Assembly (NCBI RefSeq): GCF_040802235.1
Contig: NC_133170.1
Span: 43,099,501 to 43,163,500 of the forward strand
Origin: Manis javanica
Taxonomy: Eukaryota; Chordata; Mammalia; Pholidota; Manidae
Direction: 5' to 3'
DNA: 64,000 nt
Made by a program: the position numbers and the translations under genes. A model generated the notes under the pieces. That model ran no database searches. It was given only the letters and a program-made list of their open reading frames with translations, and was not told the DNA's origin. Positions 15,098 through 63,755 of this stretch are shown here, piece after piece. Position 1 is the first letter of the stretch, and every line of letters begins with the position of its first letter.

Positions 15098-15112
15098 AAA
15101 AATAAGCATCTT
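15098..15112. repeat. Upstream TSD of the composite L1
   Basis: AAAAATAAGCATCTT lies immediately before the L1 5' end and is repeated without mismatch at 23834-23848, after the distal poly(A). A perfect 15-bp duplication around the whole 8.7-kb unit indicates one target-primed insertion. Confidence 0.9.
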
Positions 15113-15379
15113 GGGGGGCGGAGCCAGGAAAGCGGCGTGAGTAGAGCAGTGGAAATCTCCTCCCAAAAACACATAGAGCTATGAAAATATAACAAAGAAA
15201 AATCTTCCTAAAATAGAGACCACAGGACACAGGACAACATCCAGACCACATCCACACCTGCAAGAACCCAGCGCCTTGCGAAGGGGGTAAGATACAAGCC
15301 CCGGCCCGGCGGGACCTGAGCGCCCCTCCCCCCGGCTGCCGGCGGGTGGAGAGAAAACCGAGCGGTTTTTTTTTTTTTT

Positions 15380-16370
15380 TTTGGCGAGCGCTTTTTGGAA
15401 GCCTTAGAGGGACGGGCCCCCGTTGCTGGGGAGGCAGGGTGGCGGGACCAAGCAGGTGCCTGGGAACGGCACTGGAGGACAAAGAATATCCCGCGTTTCT
15501 CCCTGCGGGACCGGCAGACGGGTGCCTGAAACCGGTGCCTGAGGACGGAGGAGGTCGCGCGTTTTTCCCCCTTTTTTTTTTTCTCTTTTTGGCGAGCGCT
15601 TTTTGGAAGCCTTGAAGGGATGGGGACCCCAGTGCTAGGGAGGCAGGGTGGTGGGACTGGTGAGCGGGTACCTGGGACTGGCGACTGAGGACAAAGAATA
15701 TCCCACGTTTTTCCCTGCGGGACCGGTGGGCGGGTGCCTGAGGCCGGCACTTGAGGACAGAGGAAATCGTGCGTTTTTCCCCTTTTTTTTTCTCTTTTCT
15801 GCGAGTGCTTTTTGGAAGCCTAAAAGGGACAGGGACCCCGGTGCTAGGGAGGCAGGGTGGCAGGACTGGTGAGCGGGTGCCTGGGACTGGCACCTGAGGA
15901 AAAAGAATATCCCGCGTTTTTCGCTGTGGGACCGGTAGGTGGGTGCCTGAGACCGGCACCTGAGGATGAAAGAAATCGCGCGTTTTTCCCCTTTTTTTCT
16001 CTCTTTTTGGCGAGTGCTTTTTGGAAGCCTTGAAGGGACAGGGACCCCGGTGCTAGGGAGGCAGGGTGGCGGGACTGGTGAGCGGGTGCCTGGGACCAGT
16101 GCCTGAGGACAAAGAATATCGAGCGTTCCTTCCCTGCGGGACCGGTGGGTGGGTGCTTTTTGGAAGCCTTGAAAGGACAGGGACCCTGGTGCTAGGGAGA
16201 CAGGGCAGCAGGACCAGTGAGCGGGTGCCTGGGACCGGCACCTGAGGACAAAAAAAAAAAAAAAAATCGCTTGTTTTTTCCTTTTTTTTTTTTTTTTCTT
16301 TCTTTCTGTTCCCTCTCTCATTGTTGCTGTTGTTGTTTTGGTTTGGAGAGTGCTTTTTGGAAGTCTTAAA
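15380..16370 (+). promoter_or_regulatory. L1 5' UTR tandem monomer array (putative promoter)
   Basis: The word CTTTTTGGAAG recurs at 15391, 15599, 15808, 16017, 16156 and 16353, giving spacings of 208, 209, 209, 139 and 197. Between copies the same order recurs: GGGACCGG-type segments, 'GAGGACAAAGAATATC' and a pyrimidine tract ending in CTCTTTTTGGCGAG. These are head-to-tail monomers, the last ones shortened. Mouse L1 families carry comparable tandem monomers that act as an additive promoter; promoter function here is inferred from that parallel. Confidence 0.8.
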
Positions 16371-16728
16371 GGGGCAGGACAGGTCACTTAGACCAGAGGC
16401 AGGGAATCTGGGGATCTCTGGGCACTCTAACCCCCTGGGCAGCAGGGAGCACAGAGGCCCCTTATGGAGATAAATAGCCTCCTGGCCGCTCCCCCTCCAA
16501 TTGGGCTCCACCATTTTGGAGGAACAGCCCCAGCCAGGCCAAGCCCACAGCAACAGCGGAGATAAACCCCAAAGCAACTGGGCAGGAAGCAGAAGCCCTG
16601 TCTGCACACAGCTACCCAGCACAAGCAATTAGAGGTCGCTATTCTCCCAGGAAAAGGCTACAAACCAACAAGAAGGGAAGCTCTTCCAGCGGTCACTTGT
16701 ACCAGCTCTGCAAACTATCTCTATCACC

Positions 16729-17619
16729 ATGAAAAGGCAAAACTACAGGCAGACAAAGATCACAGAGACAACACCTGAGAAGGAGACAGACCTAACTAGT
16801 CCTCCTGAAAAAGAATTCAAAATAAAAATCATGAACATGCTGACAGAGATGCAGAGAAAAATGCAAGAGCAATGGGATGAGATGCAGAGAAAAATGCAAG
16901 AGCAGTGGGATGAAGTCCGGAAGGAAATCACAGATGTCAGGAAAGAGATCACAGAAGTGAAACAATCCCTGGAAGGATTTATAAGCAGAATGGATAAGAT
17001 GCAAGAGGCCATTGAAGGAATAGAAGCCAGAGAACAGGAACGTATAGAAGCTGACATAGAGAGAGATAAAACGATCTCCAGGAATGAAACAACACTAAGA
17101 GAAATATGTGACCAATACAAAAGGAATAACATTCGTATTATAGGGATACCAGAAGAGGAAGAAAGAGGAAAAGGGATAGAAAGTGTCTTTGAAGAAATAA
17201 TTGCTGAAAACTTCCCCAAACTGGGGGAGGAAATAATCGAACAGACCATGGAATTACACAGAACCCCCAACAGAAAGGATCCAAGGAGGACAACACCAAG
17301 ACACATAGTAATTAAAATGGCAAGGATCAAGGACAAGGAAAGAGTTTTAAAGGCAGCTAGAGAGAAAAAGGTCACCTATAAAGGAAAACCAATCAGGCTA
17401 ACATCAGACTTCTCAACAGAAACCCTACAGGCCAGAAGAGAATGGCATGATATACTTAATGCAATGAAACAGAAGGGCCTTGAACCAAGGATACTGTATC
17501 CAGCACGACTATCATTTAAATATGATGGTGGGATCAAACAATTCCCAGACAAGCAAAAGCTGAGGGAATTTGCTTCCCACAAACCACCTCTACAGGGCAT
17601 CCTACACGGACTGCTCTAG
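16729..17619 (+). CDS. ORF1: L1 ORF1 protein (ORF1p), intact
   Basis: This 296-residue frame encodes the L1 nucleic-acid chaperone that trimerises and coats L1 RNA in the retrotransposition particle. The N-terminus is polar. A coiled-coil segment lies at about residues 35-95, with 11-residue direct repeats (residues 40-50 and 51-61) rich in MQ.K and QWDE. An RRM-like domain follows, with RNNIRIIGIPE near residues 130-142. The C-terminal domain has AAREK, PIRLTSDFSTETLQARREW and a YPA.LSF segment, all typical of the family. Length is somewhat below the human protein (338 residues). The start follows the 5' UTR, and no upstream in-frame extension is needed. ORF2 begins 168 bases after the stop. 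The ORF is open throughout, so it could be translated if transcribed. Confidence 0.93.
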   Translation: MKRQNYRQTKITETTPEKETDLTSPPEKEFKIKIMNMLTEMQRKMQEQWDEMQRKMQEQWDEVRKEITDVRKEITEVKQSLEGFISRMDKMQEAIEGIEAREQERIEADIERDKTISRNETTLREICDQYKRNNIRIIGIPEEEERGKGIESVFEEIIAENFPKLGEEIIEQTMELHRTPNRKDPRRTTPRHIVIKMARIKDKERVLKAAREKKVTYKGKPIRLTSDFSTETLQARREWHDILNAMKQKGLEPRILYPARLSFKYDGGIKQFPDKQKLREFASHKPPLQGILHGLL

Positions 17620-17787
17620 ATGGGAGCACCCCTAAAAAGAGCACAGAACAAAACACACAACATATGAAGAATGGAGGAGGAGGAATAAGAAGGGAGAGAA
17701 GAAAAGAATCTCCAGACAGTGTATATAACAGCTCAATAAGCGAGCTAAGTTAGGCAGTAAGATACTAAAGAAGCTAACCTTGAACCT

Positions 17788-20700
17788 TTGGTAACCACAA
17801 ATCTAAAGCCTGAAATGGCAATAAGTACATATCTCTCAATAGTCACCCTAAATGTAAATGGACTTAATGCACCAATCAAAAGACATAGAGTAATAGAATG
17901 GATAAAAAAGCAAGACCCATCTATATGCTGCTTACAAGAAACTCACCTTAAACCCAAAGATAAGCATAGACTAAAAGTCAAGGGATGGAAAAACTTATTT
18001 CAGGCAAACAACAGTGAGAAGAAAGCAGGGGTTGCAGTACTAATATCAGACAAAATAGACTTCAAAACAAAGAAAGTAACAAGAGATAAAGAAGGCCACT
18101 ACATAATGATAAAGGGCTCAGTCCAACAAGAGGATATAACCATTCTAAATATATATGCACCCAATACAGGAGCACCAGCATATGTGAAGCAAATACTAAC
18201 AGAACTAAAGAGGGAAATAGACTGCAATGCATTCATTGTAGGATACTTCAACACACCACTCACCCCAAAGGATGGATCCACCGGGCAGAAAATAAGTAAA
18301 GACACACAGGCACTGAACAACACACTAGAACAGATGGACCTAATAGACAGCTATAGAACTCTACATCCAAAAGCAACAGGATATACATTCTTCTCAAGTG
18401 CACATGGAACATTCTCCAGAATAGACCACATACTAGCTCACAAAAAGAGCCTCAGTAAATTCCAAAATATTGAAATTCTACCAACCAATTTTTCAGACCA
18501 CAAAGGCATGAAAGTAGAAATAAATTCTACAAAGAAAACAAAAAGGCTCACAAACACATGGAGGCTTAACAACATCCTACTAAATAATCAGTGGATCAAT
18601 GAACAAATCAAAATAGAGATCAAGGAATATATAGAAACAAATGACAACAACAACACTAAGCCCCAACTTCTGTGGAATGCAGCGAAAGCAGTCTTAAGAG
18701 AAAAGTATATAGCAATCCAGGCACACTTGAAGAAGGAAGAACAATCCCAAATGAATAGTCTAACATCACAATTATTAAAACTGGAAAAAGAAGAACAAAT
18801 GAGGCCTAAAGTCAGCAGAAGGAGGGACATAATAAAGATCAGAGAAGAAATAAACAAAATTGAGAAGAATAAAACAATAGCAAAAATCAATGAAACCAAG
18901 AGCTGGTTCTCTGAGAAAAAAAACAAAATAGATAAGCCTCTAGCCCAACTTATTAAGAGAAAAAGAGAGTCAACACAAATCAACATAAGCAGAAATGAGA
19001 ATGGAAAAATCACGACAGACTCCACAGAAATACAAAGAATTATTAAAGACTACTATGAAAACCTATATGCCAACAAGCTGGAAAACCTAGAAGAAATGGA
19101 CAACTTCCTAGAAAAATACAACCTTCCAAGACTGACCAAGGAAGAAACACAAAAGTTAAACAAACCAATTACAAGCAAAGAAATTAAAACAGTAATCAAA
19201 AAACTACCCAAGAACAAAACCCTGGTGCCGGATGGATTTACCTCGGAATTTTATCAGACACACAGAGAAGACATAATACCCATTCTCCTTAAAGTGTTCC
19301 ACAAAATAGAAGAAGAGGGAATACTCCCAAACTCATTCTATGAAGCCAACATCACCCTAATACCAAAACCAGGAAAAGACCCCAACAAAAAAGAAAATTA
19401 CAGACCAATATCCCTGATGAATGTAGATGCGAAAATACTCAATAAAATATTAGCAAACAGAATTCAACAGCATATCAAAAGGATCATACACCATGACCAA
19501 GTGGGGTTCATCCCAGCGATGCAAGGATGGTACAACATTCGAAAATCCATCAACATCATCCACCACATCAACAAAAAGAAAGACAAAAACCACATGATCA
19601 TCTCCATAGATGCTGAAAAAGCATTTGACAAAATTCAACATCCATTCATGATAAAAACTCTCAGCAAAATGGGAATAGAGGGCAAGTACCTCAACATAAT
19701 AAAGGCCATATATGATAAACCCACAGCCAGCATTATACTGAACAGCGAGAAGCTGAAAGCATTTCCTCTGAGATCGGGAACCAGACAGGGATGCCCACTC
19801 TCCCCACTGTTATTTAACATAGTACTGGAGGTCCTAGCCAAGGCAATCAGACAAAACAAAGAAATACAAGGAATCCAGATTGGTAAAGAAGAAGTTAAAC
19901 TGTCACTATTTGCAGATGATATGATACTGTACATAAAAAACCCTAAAGACTCCACTCCAAAACTACTAGAACTGATATCAGAATACAGCAAAGTTGCAGG
20001 ATACAAAATTAACACACAGAAATCTGTAGCTTTCCTATACACTAACAACGAATCAATAGAAAGAGAAATCAGGAAAACAATTCCATTCACCATTGCATCA
20101 AAAAGAATAAAATACCTAGGAATAAACCTAACCAAAGAAGTGAAAGACTTATACTCTGAAAACTACAAGTCACTCTTAAGAGAAAATAAAGTGGACACTA
20201 ATAAATGGAAACTCATCCCATGCTCATGGCTAGGAAGAATTAATATTGTCAAAATGGCAATCCTGCCCAAAGCAATATACAGATTTGATGCAATACCTCT
20301 CAAATTACTAGCAACATTCTTCAATGAATTGGAACAAATAATTCAAAAATTCATATGGAAACACCAAAGACCCCGAATAGCCAAAGCAATCCTAAGAAAG
20401 AAGAATAAAGTAGGGGGGATCTCACTCCCCAACTTCAAGCTCTACTACAAAGCCATAGTAATCAAGACAATTTGGTACTGGCACAAGAACAGAGCCACAG
20501 ACCAGTGGAACAGATTAGAGACCCCAGAAATTAACCCAAACATATATGGTCAATTAATATTTGATAAAGGAGCCATGGACATACAATGGCAAAATGACAG
20601 TCTCTTCAACAGATGGTGCTGGCAAAACTGGACAGCTACATGTAGGAGAATGAAACTGGACCATTGTCTAACCCCATATACAAAGGTAAACTCAAAATGG

Positions 20701-21612
20701 ATCAAAGACCTGAATGTAAGTCATGAAACCATTAAACTCTTGGAAAAAAACATAGGCAAAAACCTCTTAGACATAAACATGAGTGATCTCTTCTTGAACA
20801 TATCTCCCCGGGCAAGGAAAACAACAGCAAAAATGAGCAAGTGGGACTACATTAAGCTGAAAAGCTTCTGTACAGCGAAAGACACCATCAATAGAACAAA
20901 AAGGAACCCTACAGTATGGGAGAATATATTTGAAAATGACAGATCCGATAAAGGCTTGACGTCCAGAATATATAAAGAGCTCACACGCCTCAACAAACAA
21001 AAAACAAATAACCCAATTAAAAAATGGGCAGAGGAACTGAACAGACAGTTCTCCAAAAAAGAAATACAGATGGCCAAGAGACACATGAAAAGATGCTCCA
21101 CATCGCTAATTATCAGAGAAATGCAAATTAAAACTACAATGAGGTATCACCTCACACCAGTAAGGATAGCTGCCATCCAAAAGACAAACAACAACAAATG
21201 TTGGCGAGGCTGTGGAGAAAGGGGAACCCTCCTACACTGCTGGTGGGAATGTAAATTAGTTCAACCATTGTGGAAAGCAGTATGGAGGTGCATCAAAATG
21301 CTCAAAACAGACCTACCATTTGACCCAGGAATTCCACTCCTAGGAATTTACCCTAAGAACACAGCAATCAAGTTTGAGAAAGACAGATGCACTCCTATGC
21401 TTATCGCAGCACTATTTACAATAGCCAAGAATTGGAAGCAACCTAAATGTCCATCGGTAGATGAATGGATAAAGAAGATGTGGTACATATACACAATGGA
21501 ATACTACTCAGCCATAAGAAGTGGAAAAATCCAACCATTTGCAGCAACATGGATGGAGCTGGATAGTATTATGCTCAGTGAAATAAGCCAAGCGGAGAAA
21601 GAGAAATACTAA
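17788..21612 (+). CDS. ORF2: L1 ORF2 protein (endonuclease-reverse transcriptase), open but with altered endonuclease active site
   Basis: This 1274-residue frame matches the usual L1 ORF2p length. It would nick target DNA and reverse-transcribe L1 RNA. Residues 1 to about 245 form the AP-like endonuclease: Asn22, Glu51 (CCLQETH), Tyr123 (YAPNTG), Asn155, Asp213 (RIDH) and the SDH near 236-238 are present. The catalytic Asp equivalent to human D145 is Tyr153, codon TAC at 18244-18246, giving GYFNTPL. The RT domain has [22 protein letters not shown] and the FADD box (708-711). The C-terminal zinc-knuckle-like motif has Cys1138, Cys1142, His1150 and Cys1155. The RT and C-terminal parts look complete. 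With the altered Asp, the copy is predicted to be endonuclease-deficient. The start chosen is the first ATG of the frame; a shorter start would still include the active site. Confidence 0.95.
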
Positions 21613-21971
21613 ATGATTTCACTCATCTGAGGAGTATAGGAACAAAGGAAAAACTGAAGGAACAAAACAGCAGCAGAATTACAGAACCCAAAAATGGACT
21701 AACAGGTACCAAAGGGAAAGGAACTGGGGAGGATGGGTGGGCAGGGAGGGATAAGGGGGGGGTAGAAGAAGGGGGTATTAAGATTAACATGCATGGGGGG
21801 GAGGGAGCAAGGCGAGGGTGGGCTGCACAACACAGAGAGGACAAGTAGTGACTCTACAACATTTTGCTAAGCTGATGGACAGTAACCGTAATGTGGTTGT
21901 TAGGGGGGACCTGATATAGGGGAGAGCATAGTAAACATAGTATTCTTCATGTAAGTGTAGATTAAAAATTT
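21613..21971 (+). other. L1 3' UTR with G-rich tract
   Basis: The segment after the ORF2 stop resembles the 3' UTR of the L1 nested at 33071-34980 ('GGAACAAAACAGCAG', 'GGGGAGGATGGGTGG', 'GGACAGTAAC'). Between about 21721 and 21830 it contains many runs of three or more G (GGGGAGGATGGGTGGGCAGG, GGGGGGGG, GGGGGGGAGGGAG), capable of quadruplex formation. A G-rich 3' UTR tract is a known feature of mammalian L1s. Confidence 0.85.
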
Positions 21972-22165
21972 AAAAAAAAAAAAAAAAGAAAAGAAAGAAA
22001 GAAAGGGGGATTACTCCTTAACAGGATAAAACTATTGGTAAATCAAAGATCAACGCATGCTTTAAATATCCTTAATGTTGATCACTTAAAGGGTGTCAGA
22101 TGATCAGCTATGGAGGTACTCTTTTCTGATAATATTCCTTTCTCTTAATTAAAAAAAAAAAAAAA
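21972..22165 (+). repeat. Two internal A-tracts bracketing a 150-bp segment
   Basis: The L1 body ends in A15 followed by GAAA/GAAAG repeats (21972-22003). About 150 bases of non-L1 sequence follow, then A15 at 22151-22165. The second tract looks like a fossil poly(A) inside the composite, as expected if a first 3' transduction (the 150-bp segment) was later followed by a second. No copy of the outer TSD occurs here. Confidence 0.6.
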
Positions 22166-22306
22166 GCAGTTACTGTGTGCTGACCTCCAATGAGTTCTGC
22201 ACAGTGGTATAGCGGGCATGTCAAAGTGTGGGCAAAGGGTCTGTTTGTTTCTACGCAGAAGGTCAAGGCCTAGCTTGGATACCCAGAAAATGAACTAAGA
22301 TACGAT

Positions 22307-22844
22307 ATGAGGAGGAGCTTCCGGCATCAGCACTCTCTGAGGGACTTGTGCCGGGGGATGATCATCAAAAAGCCTCCACAGGGATCCGGACAATGCTGCG
22401 GTTGTGCTGCATCCAGCCCACCGTCTCCTGGACTTGCCATAAGAATGAGGAGGGAGATGTCTAGGCTGGCATGTGCATACAGTGAGACAACAAATTTGAC
22501 CGGATCTGTACTGTTGGAACTCAACCAGGAGTTGGGAGGGGTGCAAGTTGTAGCACTCCAAAATCTCATGACTATAGACTATCTATGGTTAAAAGAACAT
22601 ATGGGATGTGAACAGATCCCAGAAATGGGCTGCTTTAATTTGTCTGATGGTTCAAGTACAGTTGGACAATATCCATCATATCATAGATAAATTTTCACAA
22701 ATGCCTAGGGTGCCTAAATGGTTTTCTTGGCTTCACTGGAGATGGATGGTAATTATAGATTTGCTTTGTTTATGTCACCGTATTCCTATTATGTTAATAT
22801 GTGTGTGCAAATTAGTTAGTAGTTTAAAACCTATACATACTTAA
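22307..22844 (+). pseudogene. Retroviral env transmembrane-subunit remnant, frameshifted
   Basis: Two overlapping frames together resemble the ectodomain and anchor of a gamma-type retroviral TM protein. The first (22307-22690) holds a heptad-like ELNQELGG segment, an LQN-type helix in the place of the immunosuppressive domain (about 22553-22600), and a Cys at 22617 followed six residues later by Gly-Cys rather than the usual Cys-Cys. The reading then switches frame near 22645-22665 and continues (to 22844) with a tryptophan-rich membrane-proximal part and a hydrophobic anchor. The surface subunit is missing. Sequence upstream may contain the degraded end of pol integrase, but that is weak. 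The frameshift and the lost Cys make it non-functional. It sits inside the L1-borne tail. Confidence 0.7.
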
Positions 22845-23471
22845 GGTACTATACAAGAAGATATGTCAGAGAAATAATCAATCCTCCCATGTTTCCTTCA
22901 TATGATACATCTATAGCTTTTCTTCTTCCTTCCTAATTACAACCCTTAAATAGAATTCGTGCCTCATATCGAATTTACCGAGTATCATAATTCCTCCAGG
23001 TGGTAAAGATACCTGGAGACAAGTGCTGGGCATAGAAGCCACAGGGCATAAATCTGCAAAGAAGTAAAAAGCTAACCTTTGCAAACAATATGGCTTCTCT
23101 CTCACTTACCAACTTTACATTTCCCTGTATGGCCCCGGAAGATGAGTGGTTAGCCAGAGACGGGTAAGATTCCTCAAGGGAGGAACTACCTAAGACAGGC
23201 ACAGTCGCAGGGGGGCCATCAGGTGAGAATTTCAGGATCAACAGAGGTGAGGCTCAGAACCTCACCCCCCCGGCTTTGAGAGAAATCTTCTGCATCCGTG
23301 GATGTCTTGCTGCCCTTGTCTAGCCTGGATTAATACTTAGTCCATAGGCACACACCTGATCATCTGATCATCTACATTTGCCTTCTTACAGCACTAAACT
23401 ATGTTTTCTACCTTTATCTTGCATCTACCTACCACTTCAGCATTTTATTAAAAATAAAAATAATAATAATA

Positions 23472-23481
23472 ATAGGAGAAA
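23472..23481 (+). other. Polypurine tract preceding the LTR remnant
   Basis: AATAGGAGAAA-type purines lie immediately before TGTGGG at 23482, the layout of a retroviral polypurine tract next to a U3 that begins TG. An upstream TAA microsatellite (about 23457-23474) merges into it. Confidence 0.5.
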
Positions 23482-23601
23482 TGTGGGATCAACATATAAA
23501 TCAAGTACAAAAATCAAACGAATATTCATATTTGACCTGATTGTTTATAGGTCATATTGCATGATCAAAACCGAAAGTTTCTGTGATGACTGCCCTTGTA
23601 C

Positions 23602-23670
23602 TGTTCACCATGTAAGAATTTACTCACTATGTAAGAATTCGTTCACCATGTAAGAACTTGTTCGTCATGC
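23602..23670 (+). repeat. 19-bp direct repeats in the U3 remnant
   Basis: Three consecutive 19-base units with core TCACCATGTAAGAA (23602-23620, 23621-23639, 23640-23658) are followed by a partial fourth. Tandem repeats in U3 commonly hold enhancer sites; function here is not known. Confidence 0.75.
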
Positions 23671-23780
23671 TTCAGAAGATTGGAGACTGACGAGAATTAG
23701 GCTTGAGATGGATTAATGATTGTACATTGAGCGTTGACCCCCCTATACTGAATTTTATTGTTGTTAACAACCATTTGATC

Positions 23781-23786
23781 AATAAA
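23781..23786 (+). terminator. Polyadenylation signal AATAAA of the composite
   Basis: AATAAA lies 18 bases upstream of the terminal A/(AAAT)n tail, at the correct distance to have specified the 3' end of the transcript that was inserted. Confidence 0.8.
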
Positions 23787-23833
23787 TATGAGAGATGCCC
23801 TCTCAAAAAAAATAAATAAATAAATAAATAAAT

Positions 23834-23848
23834 AAAAATAAGCATCTT
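23834..23848. repeat. Downstream TSD of the composite L1
   Basis: A perfect repeat of 15098-15112 directly after the AAAT-rich tail. Confidence 0.9.
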
Positions 23849-33070: not shown

Positions 33071-34980
33071 ATAAAAACTAGCAGAAAGAGAAATTGGGAA
33101 AAAAATCCATTTATAATTGCATCAAAAAGAAAAAAATACCTAGAAATAAACCTAACCAAGGAGGTGAAAGACCCATAGTCTGAAAACTACAAGACACTCA
33201 TAAGAGAAATTAAAGAAGACACCAATAAATGGAAATACATCCTGGGCTCATGGATAGGAAGAATTAATATTGTCAAAGTGGCCATCATCCTGCTTAAAGC
33301 AATCTACAGGTTCAATGCAATCCCTATCAAAATACCAACAGCACTCTTCAATGAACTAGAGTAAATAGTTCTAAAATTCATATGGAACCACAAAAGACCC
33401 CAAAGAGCCAAAACAATTCTGAGAAGGAAGAATAAACTGGGGGAATTACACTCCCCAACTTCAAGCTGTACTACAAAGCCACAGTAATCAAGACAATTTA
33501 GTACTGGTACATGAATAGACCTATAGATCAATGAAATAGAAAAGATTTCCCAGATATAAACCCACACATATATGGCCAATTAATATGTGATAAAGGAGTC
33601 ATGGATATACGATGGGGAAATGACAGCCTCTTCAACAACTGGTGTTGGCAAAACTGGACAGCTACATCCAAGAGAATGAAACTGGATCACTGTCTAACCC
33701 CATACACAAAAGTAAACTTGAAATGGATCAAAGACCTGAATGTAGATCATGAAACCATAAAACTCTTAGAAGAAAACATAGATAAAAAATCTCTTGAATA
33801 TAAACATGAGCAACCTTTTCCTGAACACATCTCTTCAGGCAAGGGAAACAAAAGCAAAAAAGAATACTGGGACTACATCAAACTAAAAAGCTTCTGTACA
33901 GCAAAGGACACCATCAGCAGAACAAAAAGGCATCCTAAAGTATAGTATAATATATTCATAGACAACATATCTGATAAGGGGTTAATATCCAAAATATATA
34001 AAGAACTTAAACGTCTTAACACCCAAAAAACACATAACCCAGTTAAAAATAGGCAGAAGATCTGAACACACACTTCTCCAAAGAAGAAATTCAGATGGCC
34101 AACAGACACATGAAAAGATGCCCCACATTGCTAATCGTCAGAGAAATTAAAATTAAAACCACAATGACATATCACCTCACACCAGTTTGGGTAGCCAACA
34201 TCCAGGAGACGAGGAACGAAAAATGCTGGCAAGGATGTGGAGAAAGAGGAACCCTCCTACACCCCCAGTGAGAATGTAAACTAGTTCAACCATTGTGGAA
34301 AGCAGTATGGAGGTTCCTCAAAAAACTCAAAATAGAAATACCATTTGACCCAGAAATCCCACTCCTAGGAATTTACCTGAAGAAAACAAGATCCCAGATT
34401 CAAAAAGACATATGCACCCTATGTTTATTGGAGCACTATTTACAATAGCCGAAATGGAAACCACCTAAGTGTCCATGAGTAGATGAATGGATAGAGAAGA
34501 TGTGGTACATATACACAATGAAATACTATTCATCCATAAGAAGAAAACAAATCCTACCATTTGCAACAACATGGATGGAGCTAGAGGGTATTATGCTCAG
34601 TGAAATAAGCCAGGTGGAGAAAGACAAGTACCAGATTATTTCACACATTTGTGGAGTATAACAAAGCAAAACTGAAGGAACAAAACAGCAGTACACTCAC
34701 AGAACCTAAGAAGGGACTAGCAGTTACCAAAAGGAAAGGGGGTGGGGAGGATGGGTGGAGATGGAGGAAGAAGGGGCTTAAGTGGCATTATGATTAGAAC
34801 ACTTAATATATGGGGGTCATGAGGAAGGCAGTATAGTGACTGTATAGCATCTTACTACACTAAGGGACAGTAACTGCAATGGAGTATGTGAGGGGAAATT
34901 GCTAATATGGGTGAATGTAGTAACCACAATGTTGCTCATGTGAAGCCTTCATAAAGTTGTATATCAATGATACCTTAATA
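33071..34980 (+). mobile_element. Younger L1, 5'-truncated, nested in older L1
   Basis: The copy starts within ORF2 (equivalent to about 20058 of the intact L1) and runs to a 3' UTR of the same type: 'GGAACAAAACAGCAGTACACTCACAGAACC', a G-rich tract, 'GGGACAGTAACTGCAATGGAG', and a short AATAAAAAA tail. It matches the 15113 copy closely but has several frame-breaking changes. The longest remaining open segment (33601-33945) covers the [12 protein letters not shown] to SFCTAKDT region of ORF2. TSD-like repeats flank it. Confidence 0.88.
33601..33945 (+). pseudogene. L1 ORF2 C-terminal-domain remnant
   Basis: A 114-codon frame inside the nested L1 encodes part of the ORF2 region between RT and zinc knuckle. 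It shows [31 protein letters not shown] and [10 protein letters not shown] words matching residues 930-1045 of the intact ORF2. It is closed on both sides by stops. Confidence 0.85.
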
Positions 34981-34986
34981 AAAAAG

Positions 34987-61997: not shown

Positions 61998-63755
61998 ATG
62001 GGGAATGCACCGTCATTAGTCACGGCGCTGCAGACAGCTCTCAAAGAGCGAAACTTGAAGGTCTCCAGCAAAGTCTTAGGATCTTTTGTGAAGGAGATAG
62101 ACCGTGTGGCCCCCTGGTTCATTTGTTCAGGGTCCCTCTCAATCCCGAGCTGGGACAAACTGGGGAAAGATCTTGATAGAGAGGAGGAGGAGGGTAGCCT
62201 GAGGGGAGGCACCAGGCCCCTCTGGAAACTGATTAGAGCTTGTCTGCAAGATGAGAGATGTGAAAAGGTAATAAAAGAAGGTCAGAGAGCATTGACAGAT
62301 ATCCAAGAGAGTATGTCAGAAACGGAACGGGAAACAGAGAGCGTGCGCGGCCGAAAAAAGGCCACAAAAACGAAGGTAAAGAAACCCCAGAGTGAGGGAG
62401 AAAGCCCGCCTAGGGCAAAAGCGAAAGAGCCCCGAGAAGCGAGTGACGATCGCCTCGGAGAAAATAGTAAATACCCCTGGAAAGAGTTGAGGGACCTCCA
62501 ACTCTCCAATAGGGAATCTGAGGAGGAATTAACGTCCGCAGAGGAAGGGGAAGAAAATAAAACCGCAGAGTGTAGAAGTAAGGGAACCAGCAAAGTTGAA
62601 AAGCGGACCAAGGAAAAAATGAAAGCAGTGTGTCCCCCCATGCCCGTTGCCCCGCCACCTTACGTGAGTGGCGCACTCTCCTTTTGCCACCCAGATACTC
62701 TTCAGGCAATTAGACAAATGTTTCCTGTATTTGAGGATAATGGCGTACGCTCTCACCAGCCCCTGAGCCATAAACAAGTTAAGGAGTTAGCAGAATCCGT
62801 TCGGGCTTATGGAGTCAGTGCCAACTATACCATAGCACAAGTTGAGAGATTAACAGAGACAGCCATGACACCTGCAGACTGGCAATATGTAACTAAGGCA
62901 TGCCTTTCTAGTATGGGGCAATACATAGAATGGAAGGCATTGTGGCATGATATCAGTATGACCCAGGCACGCGCAAACGCGGCCGAAGGACAGCCTGCGT
63001 GGTCATATGATATGCTGACGGGCCAAGGACAGTGGGTAGCCAACCAGACCGCCTTCCCCTTACAGGTATACGCACAAATAAACACGTGCGCCGCCAAGGC
63101 ATGGAAAGCCCTCACCAACAAAGGAGAAGTATCAGGCAATTTGACAAAAATTATTCAGGGGCTGAGCGAGTCATTTTCTGACTTTGTCGCTCGTATGATG
63201 GAGGCTGCAGGCAGAATATTTGGAGATCAGGAACAAGCAATGCCCCTAGTGGAGCAATTAGTATTTGAACAATGTACCAAGGAATGCAGACAGGCGATAA
63301 CACCCTGGAAACAAAAAGGGATACATGCCTGGTTGAAAGCCTGTAGAGAAATAGGAGGGCCACTCACCAATGCGGGCCTAGCCGCGGCCATATTACAGAG
63401 CCACAAACAAGCCAAGATCACTAACAGAAGTATCAAATGCTTTCAATGTGGGAAATTAGGACATATAAAGAGAGAGTGTAAGAGCCCAGCTTCAGAACAA
63501 ACAACCCAAAAGACCCCTGGGTTGTGCCCTAATTGTAAGAAAGGTAGGCATTGGGCCAATGAGTGCCGATCTACTAAAAACTTAGAGGGGAAGCCCTTAG
63601 AACTGCCAAAAAACGCCCAGAGGGGCCCCCGTCACCAGGGCCCGCAAATATATGGGGCAACCAGCACGCAAGTGTCATTCGGGAACAACCAGGCCCCCCA
63701 AGGAGAGCCACTTCAGGTTCCGCGGGATTGGACATCCGTGCCACCACCAGAATAG
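61998..63755 (+). CDS. gag: ERV gag polyprotein, complete
   Basis: This 585-residue frame encodes the structural precursor that assembles the particle. The N-terminus MGNA suits N-myristoylation of matrix. A long charged, Lys/Glu-rich region follows (about 90-205), then a PPPY late-domain motif at residues 219-222. The capsid region (about 225-470) has a major-homology-like segment near 387-406. The nucleocapsid has two CCHC zinc knuckles, C481-C494 (CFQC..G.H...C) and C510-C523 (CPNC..G.H...C). The frame is open from start to stop. The ATG is the first after the leader, and its context (CACCATGG) is strong. Downstream pro overlaps in the -1 frame. Class II (betaretrovirus-like) by the two knuckles and by dUTPase in pro. 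It looks young. Confidence 0.93.
   Translation: MGNAPSLVTALQTALKERNLKVSSKVLGSFVKEIDRVAPWFICSGSLSIPSWDKLGKDLDREEEEGSLRGGTRPLWKLIRACLQDERCEKVIKEGQRALTDIQESMSETERETESVRGRKKATKTKVKKPQSEGESPPRAKAKEPREASDDRLGENSKYPWKELRDLQLSNRESEEELTSAEEGEENKTAECRSKGTSKVEKRTKEKMKAVCPPMPVAPPPYVSGALSFCHPDTLQAIRQMFPVFEDNGVRSHQPLSHKQVKELAESVRAYGVSANYTIAQVERLTETAMTPADWQYVTKACLSSMGQYIEWKALWHDISMTQARANAAEGQPAWSYDMLTGQGQWVANQTAFPLQVYAQINTCAAKAWKALTNKGEVSGNLTKIIQGLSESFSDFVARMMEAAGRIFGDQEQAMPLVEQLVFEQCTKECRQAITPWKQKGIHAWLKACREIGGPLTNAGLAAAILQSHKQAKITNRSIKCFQCGKLGHIKRECKSPASEQTTQKTPGLCPNCKKGRHWANECRSTKNLEGKPLELPKNAQRGPRHQGPQIYGATSTQVSFGNNQAPQGEPLQVPRDWTSVPPPE
63608..63614 (+). promoter_or_regulatory. gag-pro -1 ribosomal frameshift slippery site
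   Basis: The heptamer A AAA AAC is in the correct register with the gag codons (CCA AAA AAC), matching the X XXY YYZ rule. It is followed by a G/C-rich stretch (about 63619-63645) that could form the stimulatory structure. The pro frame is open from here on, while gag continues 47 codons to its stop. Confidence 0.8.

Follow-up and report, generated by a model that had tools for sequence, protein, structure and literature searches.

A recurrent L1-endogenous retrovirus composite in the Manis javanica genome, with a retroviral env-LTR end as its probable inherited 3' terminus

Introduction

How does the end of a retrovirus come to close a full-length L1, and is such a chimera a single accident or a family? 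The question is raised by a 64,000-nucleotide stretch of Manis javanica DNA (NCBI RefSeq assembly GCF_040802235.1, contig NC_133170.1, positions 43,099,501 to 43,163,500 of the forward strand; this whole stretch is referred to below as the window and numbered from its first letter). At 15098-23848 of the window, a long interspersed element 1 (LINE-1 or L1) is joined to the env and long terminal repeat (LTR) sequences of an endogenous retrovirus (ERV). L1 transcripts can read through to a later poly(A) site and carry non-L1 sequence into a new locus, where both parts lie within one target-site duplication (TSD) and the transduced piece marks a lineage. Such 3' transductions are usually regarded as passing tags, and the 3' ends of L1 elements as conservative. 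An initial annotation of the locus considered both a single 3' transduction and a recurrent family, and compared the tail with the SINE-R part of primate SVA elements. We found that the L1-ERV composite recurs as a family of thousands of copies and is not a one-off. In the reading that we favour, with a probability of about 0.9, an ERV env-LTR end was acquired in one old 3' transduction and has since been inherited as the 3' terminus of an autonomous young L1 lineage.

Structure of the L1-ERV unit

The composite in the window is one unit of 8.7 kb plus an A-tail, all of it on the plus strand and enclosed by a perfect TSD of 15 bp (15098-15112 and 23834-23848) whose match stops there, base 16 being different. 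Within the window, a 39-bp piece of the element end is found a single time, against zero occurrences expected by chance. The enclosure of an L1 with open reading frames (ORFs) and 1.8 kb of env and LTR sequence in a single TSD, proposed in the initial annotation, was borne out by direct reading, by Pfam and by a profile of the transmembrane (TM) subunit described below. An L1-only TSD near 22000 would have separated the two parts, and it is absent: the word at the start of the element is repeated over only 3 bp after the first A-run of the unit and 4 bp after the second, and the longest word found anywhere in the flank at the inner joint measures 5 bp, apart from a 9-bp A-rich word.

The L1 part extends over its full length from 15113 to 22004. 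Its 5' untranslated region (UTR; 15113-16728) begins directly after the TSD, with a 5' end common to other full-length copies, and contains tandem monomers of ~209 bp from ~15366 to 16255 (self-matches at steps of ~208-210 bp with 82-86% identity) that bring to mind the monomer promoters of mouse L1. ORF1 (296 aa; 16729-17619) contains RNA-binding-like and double-stranded RNA-binding-like domains (Pfam PF02994, 3.5e-25; PF17490, 4e-20), while ORF2 (1265 aa; 17815-21612) contains endonuclease/phosphatase and reverse transcriptase domains (PF03372 and PF00078), which together make up the domain set of a LINE-1. The 3' UTR, assigned by direct reading and by genome matches to 21620-21975, occupies 21613-21971 with an ATTAAA signal of its own at 21961. 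It is followed by an A-rich, GAAA-containing relic tail (21972-22004) that varies in length between copies.

The non-L1 sequence occupies 22005-23804 (1800 bp; the initial annotation had started it at 22004). The first stretch (22005-22306), delimited by its boundary word, is interpreted as a degraded pol end and includes a second, pure A-run at 22151-22165, immediately preceded by ATTAAA and 12 to 22 A long depending on the copy. It is followed by an env TM remnant with an early-ending frame (22307-22690), a non-coding stretch, and a purine tract (23474-23481) that precedes the LTR. The LTR part (23482-23804) consists of U3 and R with AATAAA at 23781-23786. As exact-word counts indicate, it ends at the poly(A) site and lacks U5, and the A-tail starts 18 bases past the signal. 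The A-rich tail itself (23805-23833, with AAAT-type repeats) leads to the right TSD. Non-L1 sequence past the A-rich end of the L1, a second A-tail and one common TSD are the features of a 3' transduction. A complete LTR with U5, as expected of a provirus or solo LTR, was not encountered in the copies examined.

Despite its open ORFs, the window copy itself is probably dead rather than a live element, because its endonuclease motif has one deviating position; the comparison is with 8 other copies in which the motif could be located.

Copy numbers across the genome

Exact-word counts span the whole genome, and control words gave zero each time; such counts underestimate the old copies and register segmental duplicates repeatedly. 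The 25-mer at the LTR end is followed by A in 18,571 exact occurrences and by C, G or T in 182. Among 100 listed of these 182 cases, 20 were read, and in all 20 an A-rich run is reached only a few bases further on; their flanks are unrelated and have no U5 in common. For the 5' boundary of the ERV part, the 25-mer has 4,010 exact occurrences, 3,980 of them with AAA directly upstream as in the L1 relic tail, so that at most 30 exact boundaries lack it.

Sequence searches gave the same picture, where candidates are first-look numbers and not copies. The LTR end returned 1,190 candidates; the 40 that were scored, the window among them, all matched at 97-100% across nearly the whole query. With the inner junction (21900-22250) as query there were 390 candidates, and the joint was spanned in 40 of 40 scored matches at 93-100%. 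When the L1 3' end was used (21620-21975; 1,787 candidates, 40 scored), all 20 matches fetched out of the 39 besides the window carried on into the ERV part. The choice between family and single transduction is settled for the family by the word counts together with a set of 20 relatives, fetched from the 39 scored LTR-end matches other than the window and referred to here as the young copies.

Insertion hallmarks of the young copies

In all 20 young copies the ERV part stops at 23802-23804, the poly(A) site of the LTR, and gives way to an A-tail. With the window included, 11 of 21 copies reach the 5' end of the L1 (window, L010, L011, L013, L016, L018, L019, L023, L024, L025 and L026), although L016 combines full-length ends with a large internal loss. 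The other 10 are 5'-truncated, with 9 distinct truncation points among them. L014 and L015 agree in truncation point, TSD and flanks and represent a single insertion in an inverted duplicate. These two loci (L015, G000:C12:76675390-76685389; L014, G000:C12:76844260-76854259) lie in opposite orientation ~170 kb apart. The initial annotation had also predicted tails without L1 upstream; these are present, but those seen are 5'-truncated copies.

Exact TSDs of at least 13 bp were found at 15 of 20 loci, compared to 0 of 378 mismatched flank pairs, in which the longest match was 11 bp. This set comprises the window and 19 young copies; L018 was left out as its 5' end lies beyond the sequence first taken, and L014 and L015 were both counted. 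The TSDs start with AAA in 14 of 15 cases, and their range over young and older copies is 13-20 bp. A-tails, TSDs, AAA-starting targets and scattered 5' truncation are the signature of target-primed insertion. The anatomy shows insertion of a single RNA of L1 plus tail by target-primed reverse transcription.

Several copies have structures of their own. L018 (with L030 and L031, G000:C1) is a composite inserted at ~19570 of a second composite, within its ORF2. L024 (with L029, G000:C8) consists of a composite, an A-run and then a second piece corresponding to 19570-23804, within one 17-bp TSD; it resembles a retrotransposed doubled unit of ~13 kb that carries further flank, in which we presume a U6-snRNA-like word. 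In L010 (G000:C2:179462020-179472019), the ERV tail is separated from the TSD by ~29 additional bases and a second A-run, which we interpret as a further 3' transduction.

Nature of the retroviral tail

For the TM frame (22307-22687), the protein collection yielded 22 relatives; P0001 is the frame of the window itself, and all the others come from ena contigs. A profile of these relatives, window included, matched the solved TM of the avian sarcoma leukosis virus (ASLV) fusion protein with an E-value of 5.7e-15 and a related solved chain with 6.8e-15, while other class I fusion proteins matched more weakly. Given this ASLV-type match, the tail derives from an ERV whose TM was of the alpha/gamma type. 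Pfam gave no match on four short pieces of the tail; on five longer relatives, all its matches fell below the curated cut-offs, including TLV_coat (0.016) and GP41 (0.055).

We take 22005-22306 to be integrase-like by its motifs, a resemblance that Pfam neither supported nor excluded; within it, the short open frame 22005-22100 is likewise presumed to be integrase-like. The spacing of the pol-like end and the TM suggests that no surface subunit lies between them.

Outside the genome, a 23-mer of the LTR end had no match in the viral and prokaryote collections, and the TM alignment yielded 87 pattern stretches in viral contigs with no relative among them. Searched at the protein level, the LTR end gave three relatives (P0023, P0024 and P0025). 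A long F run, corresponding to the A-tail on the other strand, stands before the LTR part in P0024 and P0025, whose flanks are unrelated; P0023 has two F only.

Divergence and joint inheritance of body and tail

The young copies differ little from each other: their tails are 1.8% apart on average (210 pairs) and their ORF2 sequences 1.37% (78 pairs). Both ORF1 and ORF2 are full length in four fetched copies (L010, L013, L019 and L026), and the ORF2 sequences of L010 and L026 differ by 0.11%. Some copies are very young, since they are near-identical to each other, and the L010/L026 similarity may be an indirect sign of retrotransposition activity.

Older members of the family were retrieved with an older TM version, P0010, as genome query (31,317 first-look candidates), for which all 150 scored matches fell at 85-90%. 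In the 10 copies fetched, the A-tail starts at the same LTR position without exception. Eight of them extend upstream into L1, and the remaining two, L036 and L041, are truncated within the tail, their TSDs measuring 19 and 20 bp. Relative to the window, divergence of the older copies is 4.1-13.5% for the env/non-coding part and 4.7-10% for the LTR; in the eight that contain L1, the L1 3' UTR differs by 5.5-17.8%. Across 21 copies, pairwise distances of body and tail are correlated at 0.944, a value reached in 0 of 2000 permutations. If mammalian DNA changes at 2.2e-9 per site per year, a difference of 13.5% between two copies corresponds very roughly to 30 million years. By this rough estimate the family would be older than the split between the two Manis species, for which PMC12584738 quotes ~16.4 million years.

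The TM frame is covered by 18 of the 20 young copies, and in 17 of these 18 it ends through the same shifted C-terminus as in the window. L009, L010, L023, L026 and a few others have this C-terminus with point differences, and L028 stops earlier. In the older copies the frame is open to the C-terminal motif in 8 of 10 fetched (L032 and L035-L041, with 163-225 codons; L033 and L034 are the others), which is uninformative on selection as these copies were selected by score against an intact protein. Six TM matches at G000:C2:145792415-146692812 lie on one strand, and three of the intervals between them measure 133-136 kb, perhaps a tandem segmental duplication.

Origin of the composite and alternative explanations

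The history that we propose starts with an L1 that would have inserted, in the same orientation, within or just upstream of an ERV that kept its pol end, TM, purine tract and 3' LTR. Read-through RNA of this L1 would have been cleaved at the AATAAA of the LTR, presumably because the signal of the L1 itself is weak, and the L1 proteins would have copied the longer RNA elsewhere in a 3' transduction. The composite may then have become the founder of the later lineage, as suggested by the joint divergence of body and tail, and the A-rich tract between L1 and ERV would be the relic tail of the founding insertion. As the anatomy shows, each new copy arises from a single RNA that comprises L1 and tail, terminates at the poly(A) site of the LTR and is inserted by target-primed reverse transcription; the L1 proteins would act here on their own RNA. 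A strong poly(A) signal in the LTR fits the anatomy, and the lineage might have gained an advantage from it. A broader scenario, which we consider doubtful, is that the ERV end supplied a strong cleavage site, replaced an older L1 3' end and helped the lineage to take over the genome, with the env-TM frame kept as a third ORF in earlier subfamilies.

Several observations weigh against this history. Among the copies read there was no source ERV that retains U5 or whose pol extends further upstream, and the transduction step itself is therefore unseen. The fetched sets consist of best-scoring or first-listed matches and are not random samples. Exact TSDs of at least 13 bp are lacking at 5 of 20 loci: L024 has its 17-bp TSD only when taken as a doubled unit, the repeat measures 12 bp with one mismatch in L022 and only 9-11 bp in L011, and L026 and L027 have nothing convincing. 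Among the 8 older copies the correlation of body and tail falls to 0.72. Finally, the L010/L026 pair shows 17 differences over 6,819 sites of the body and 28 over 1,639 sites of the tail (Fisher p 3e-10); the pair was picked after inspection as the most discordant, and on this evidence tails have perhaps been exchanged at least once. The pair L010/L024 leans the opposite way (body 108/6,825, tail 9/1,637; p 6e-4), L026/L024 shows no discordance of body and tail (p 0.22), and the 5' flank of L026 is the tail of another copy, local recombination being a simple alternative.

The L010/L026 mosaic would also be expected if the tail were a non-autonomous, SINE-R-like module, mobilised by L1 in trans and joined to L1 elements repeatedly. 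Tails without L1 upstream (L017, L020, L021, L022 and L027 among the 20 young copies; L036 and L041 among the 10 older ones) point in the same direction, as does the LTR-end word being 4.6 times commoner than the 5' boundary word (18,571 and 4,010), a ratio that truncation and word decay also explain. However, the tail-only copies begin at differing points, as 5' truncation would produce, the exact 5' boundaries have AAA upstream almost throughout, body and tail diverge together, and tail-less L1 3' ends number 0 of 20 fetched. We therefore regard repeated joining of such a module as improbable. Somewhat less remote, yet still unlikely, are two serial transductions, in which 22005-22150 with the tail 22151-22165 came first and the env-LTR part second. 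The pure A-run after ATTAAA, with its copy-dependent length, speaks for two steps, whereas the presumed integrase-like frame at 22005-22100 would make the whole stretch a single ERV; Pfam is undecisive here, and the density of singletons in 22004-22150 is not unusual.

The plainly retroviral character of the tail might suggest instead that ordinary ERV copies or solo LTRs came to lie next to L1 elements by chance or recombination. This has very little probability, as R is followed by an A-tail rather than U5, L1-sized TSDs surround the entire composite, and the same joint turns up in every scored junction match; for the samples examined we consider it refuted. The window by itself holds only one copy, which would agree with a 3' transduction private to this locus, but thousands of exact copies of both boundaries and 20 relatives of the whole unit refute this possibility, and we give it practically no weight. 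A single old transduction, inherited since as the 3' terminus of the L1 lineage, is the explanation that we retain.

Relation to known elements

Human L1 transduction families share with the pangolin lineage the downstream non-L1 sequence inside the TSD and a lineage marked by the transduced piece. They differ in that the pangolin piece is a retroviral env-LTR end, present at 20 of 20 fetched L1 ends, and in that it marks copies from near-identical to more than 10% diverged. A retroviral env-LTR end that was seemingly acquired a single time, and has been passed on since then as the 3' terminus of its L1 lineage, offers a natural experiment on the requirements of an L1 3' UTR and on whether the success of an L1 changes with a poly(A) signal borrowed from a retrovirus.

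The SINE-R part of the SVA (SINE-VNTR-Alu, named for short interspersed element and variable number of tandem repeats) is composed of env and LTR sequence of an ERV, namely HERV-K, ended at the LTR poly(A) site and spread by the L1 machinery. The likeness drawn in the initial annotation holds for the construction of the 3' end, since the pangolin unit also finishes with ERV env and LTR terminated at the LTR poly(A) site. It does not extend to membership or to a module of its own: every L1 end fetched has the tail, AAA precedes 3,980 of 4,010 boundaries, and truncation is scattered. Full-length pangolin copies carry ORF1 and ORF2 and are thus not non-autonomous; no Alu-like or VNTR part was recognised in a unit that reads as L1 up to 22004, no Alu search having been made; and the ERV seems to be another one, with a TM nearest to ASLV among solved structures, no HERV-K comparison having been made. 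By its sequence the composite is not an SVA, nor does it appear in these samples as a separate module. It offers a route by which an SVA-like 3' end can appear on an autonomous element.

Plain L1 elements with the same ORF order also occur in this genome. An older L1 in the window (33083-34984, of which 33083-34776 is 83% alike to 20058-21758) ends plainly, with an AATAAA-type end and without the ERV tail, and its end word (as at 34957-34984) has 943 exact copies in the genome.

In Manis pentadactyla, class II ERVs have been described, some of them with a gamma-type TM, and in one gamma ERV an L1 lies between env and the 3' LTR (PMC12584738). That survey presents the ERVs as proviruses with paired LTRs, in at most 83 copies per lineage, and its Results and Discussion describe no L1-ERV composite family (PMC12584738). 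We found no account of such a pangolin family in the open-licence literature, subscription journals and repeat databases being outside this search; in the latter, the L1 and LTR parts may already have entries of their own. Of the LTR and env matches in the pangolin genome, thousands are L1 ends, which affects counts of ERVs and solo LTRs that rest on similarity only.

The window contains one further retroviral candidate, a 585-aa open frame at 61998-63755 that we take to be gag-like, with two zinc knuckles. As it has no blastn match to the L1-ERV unit, this frame probably belongs to another ERV.

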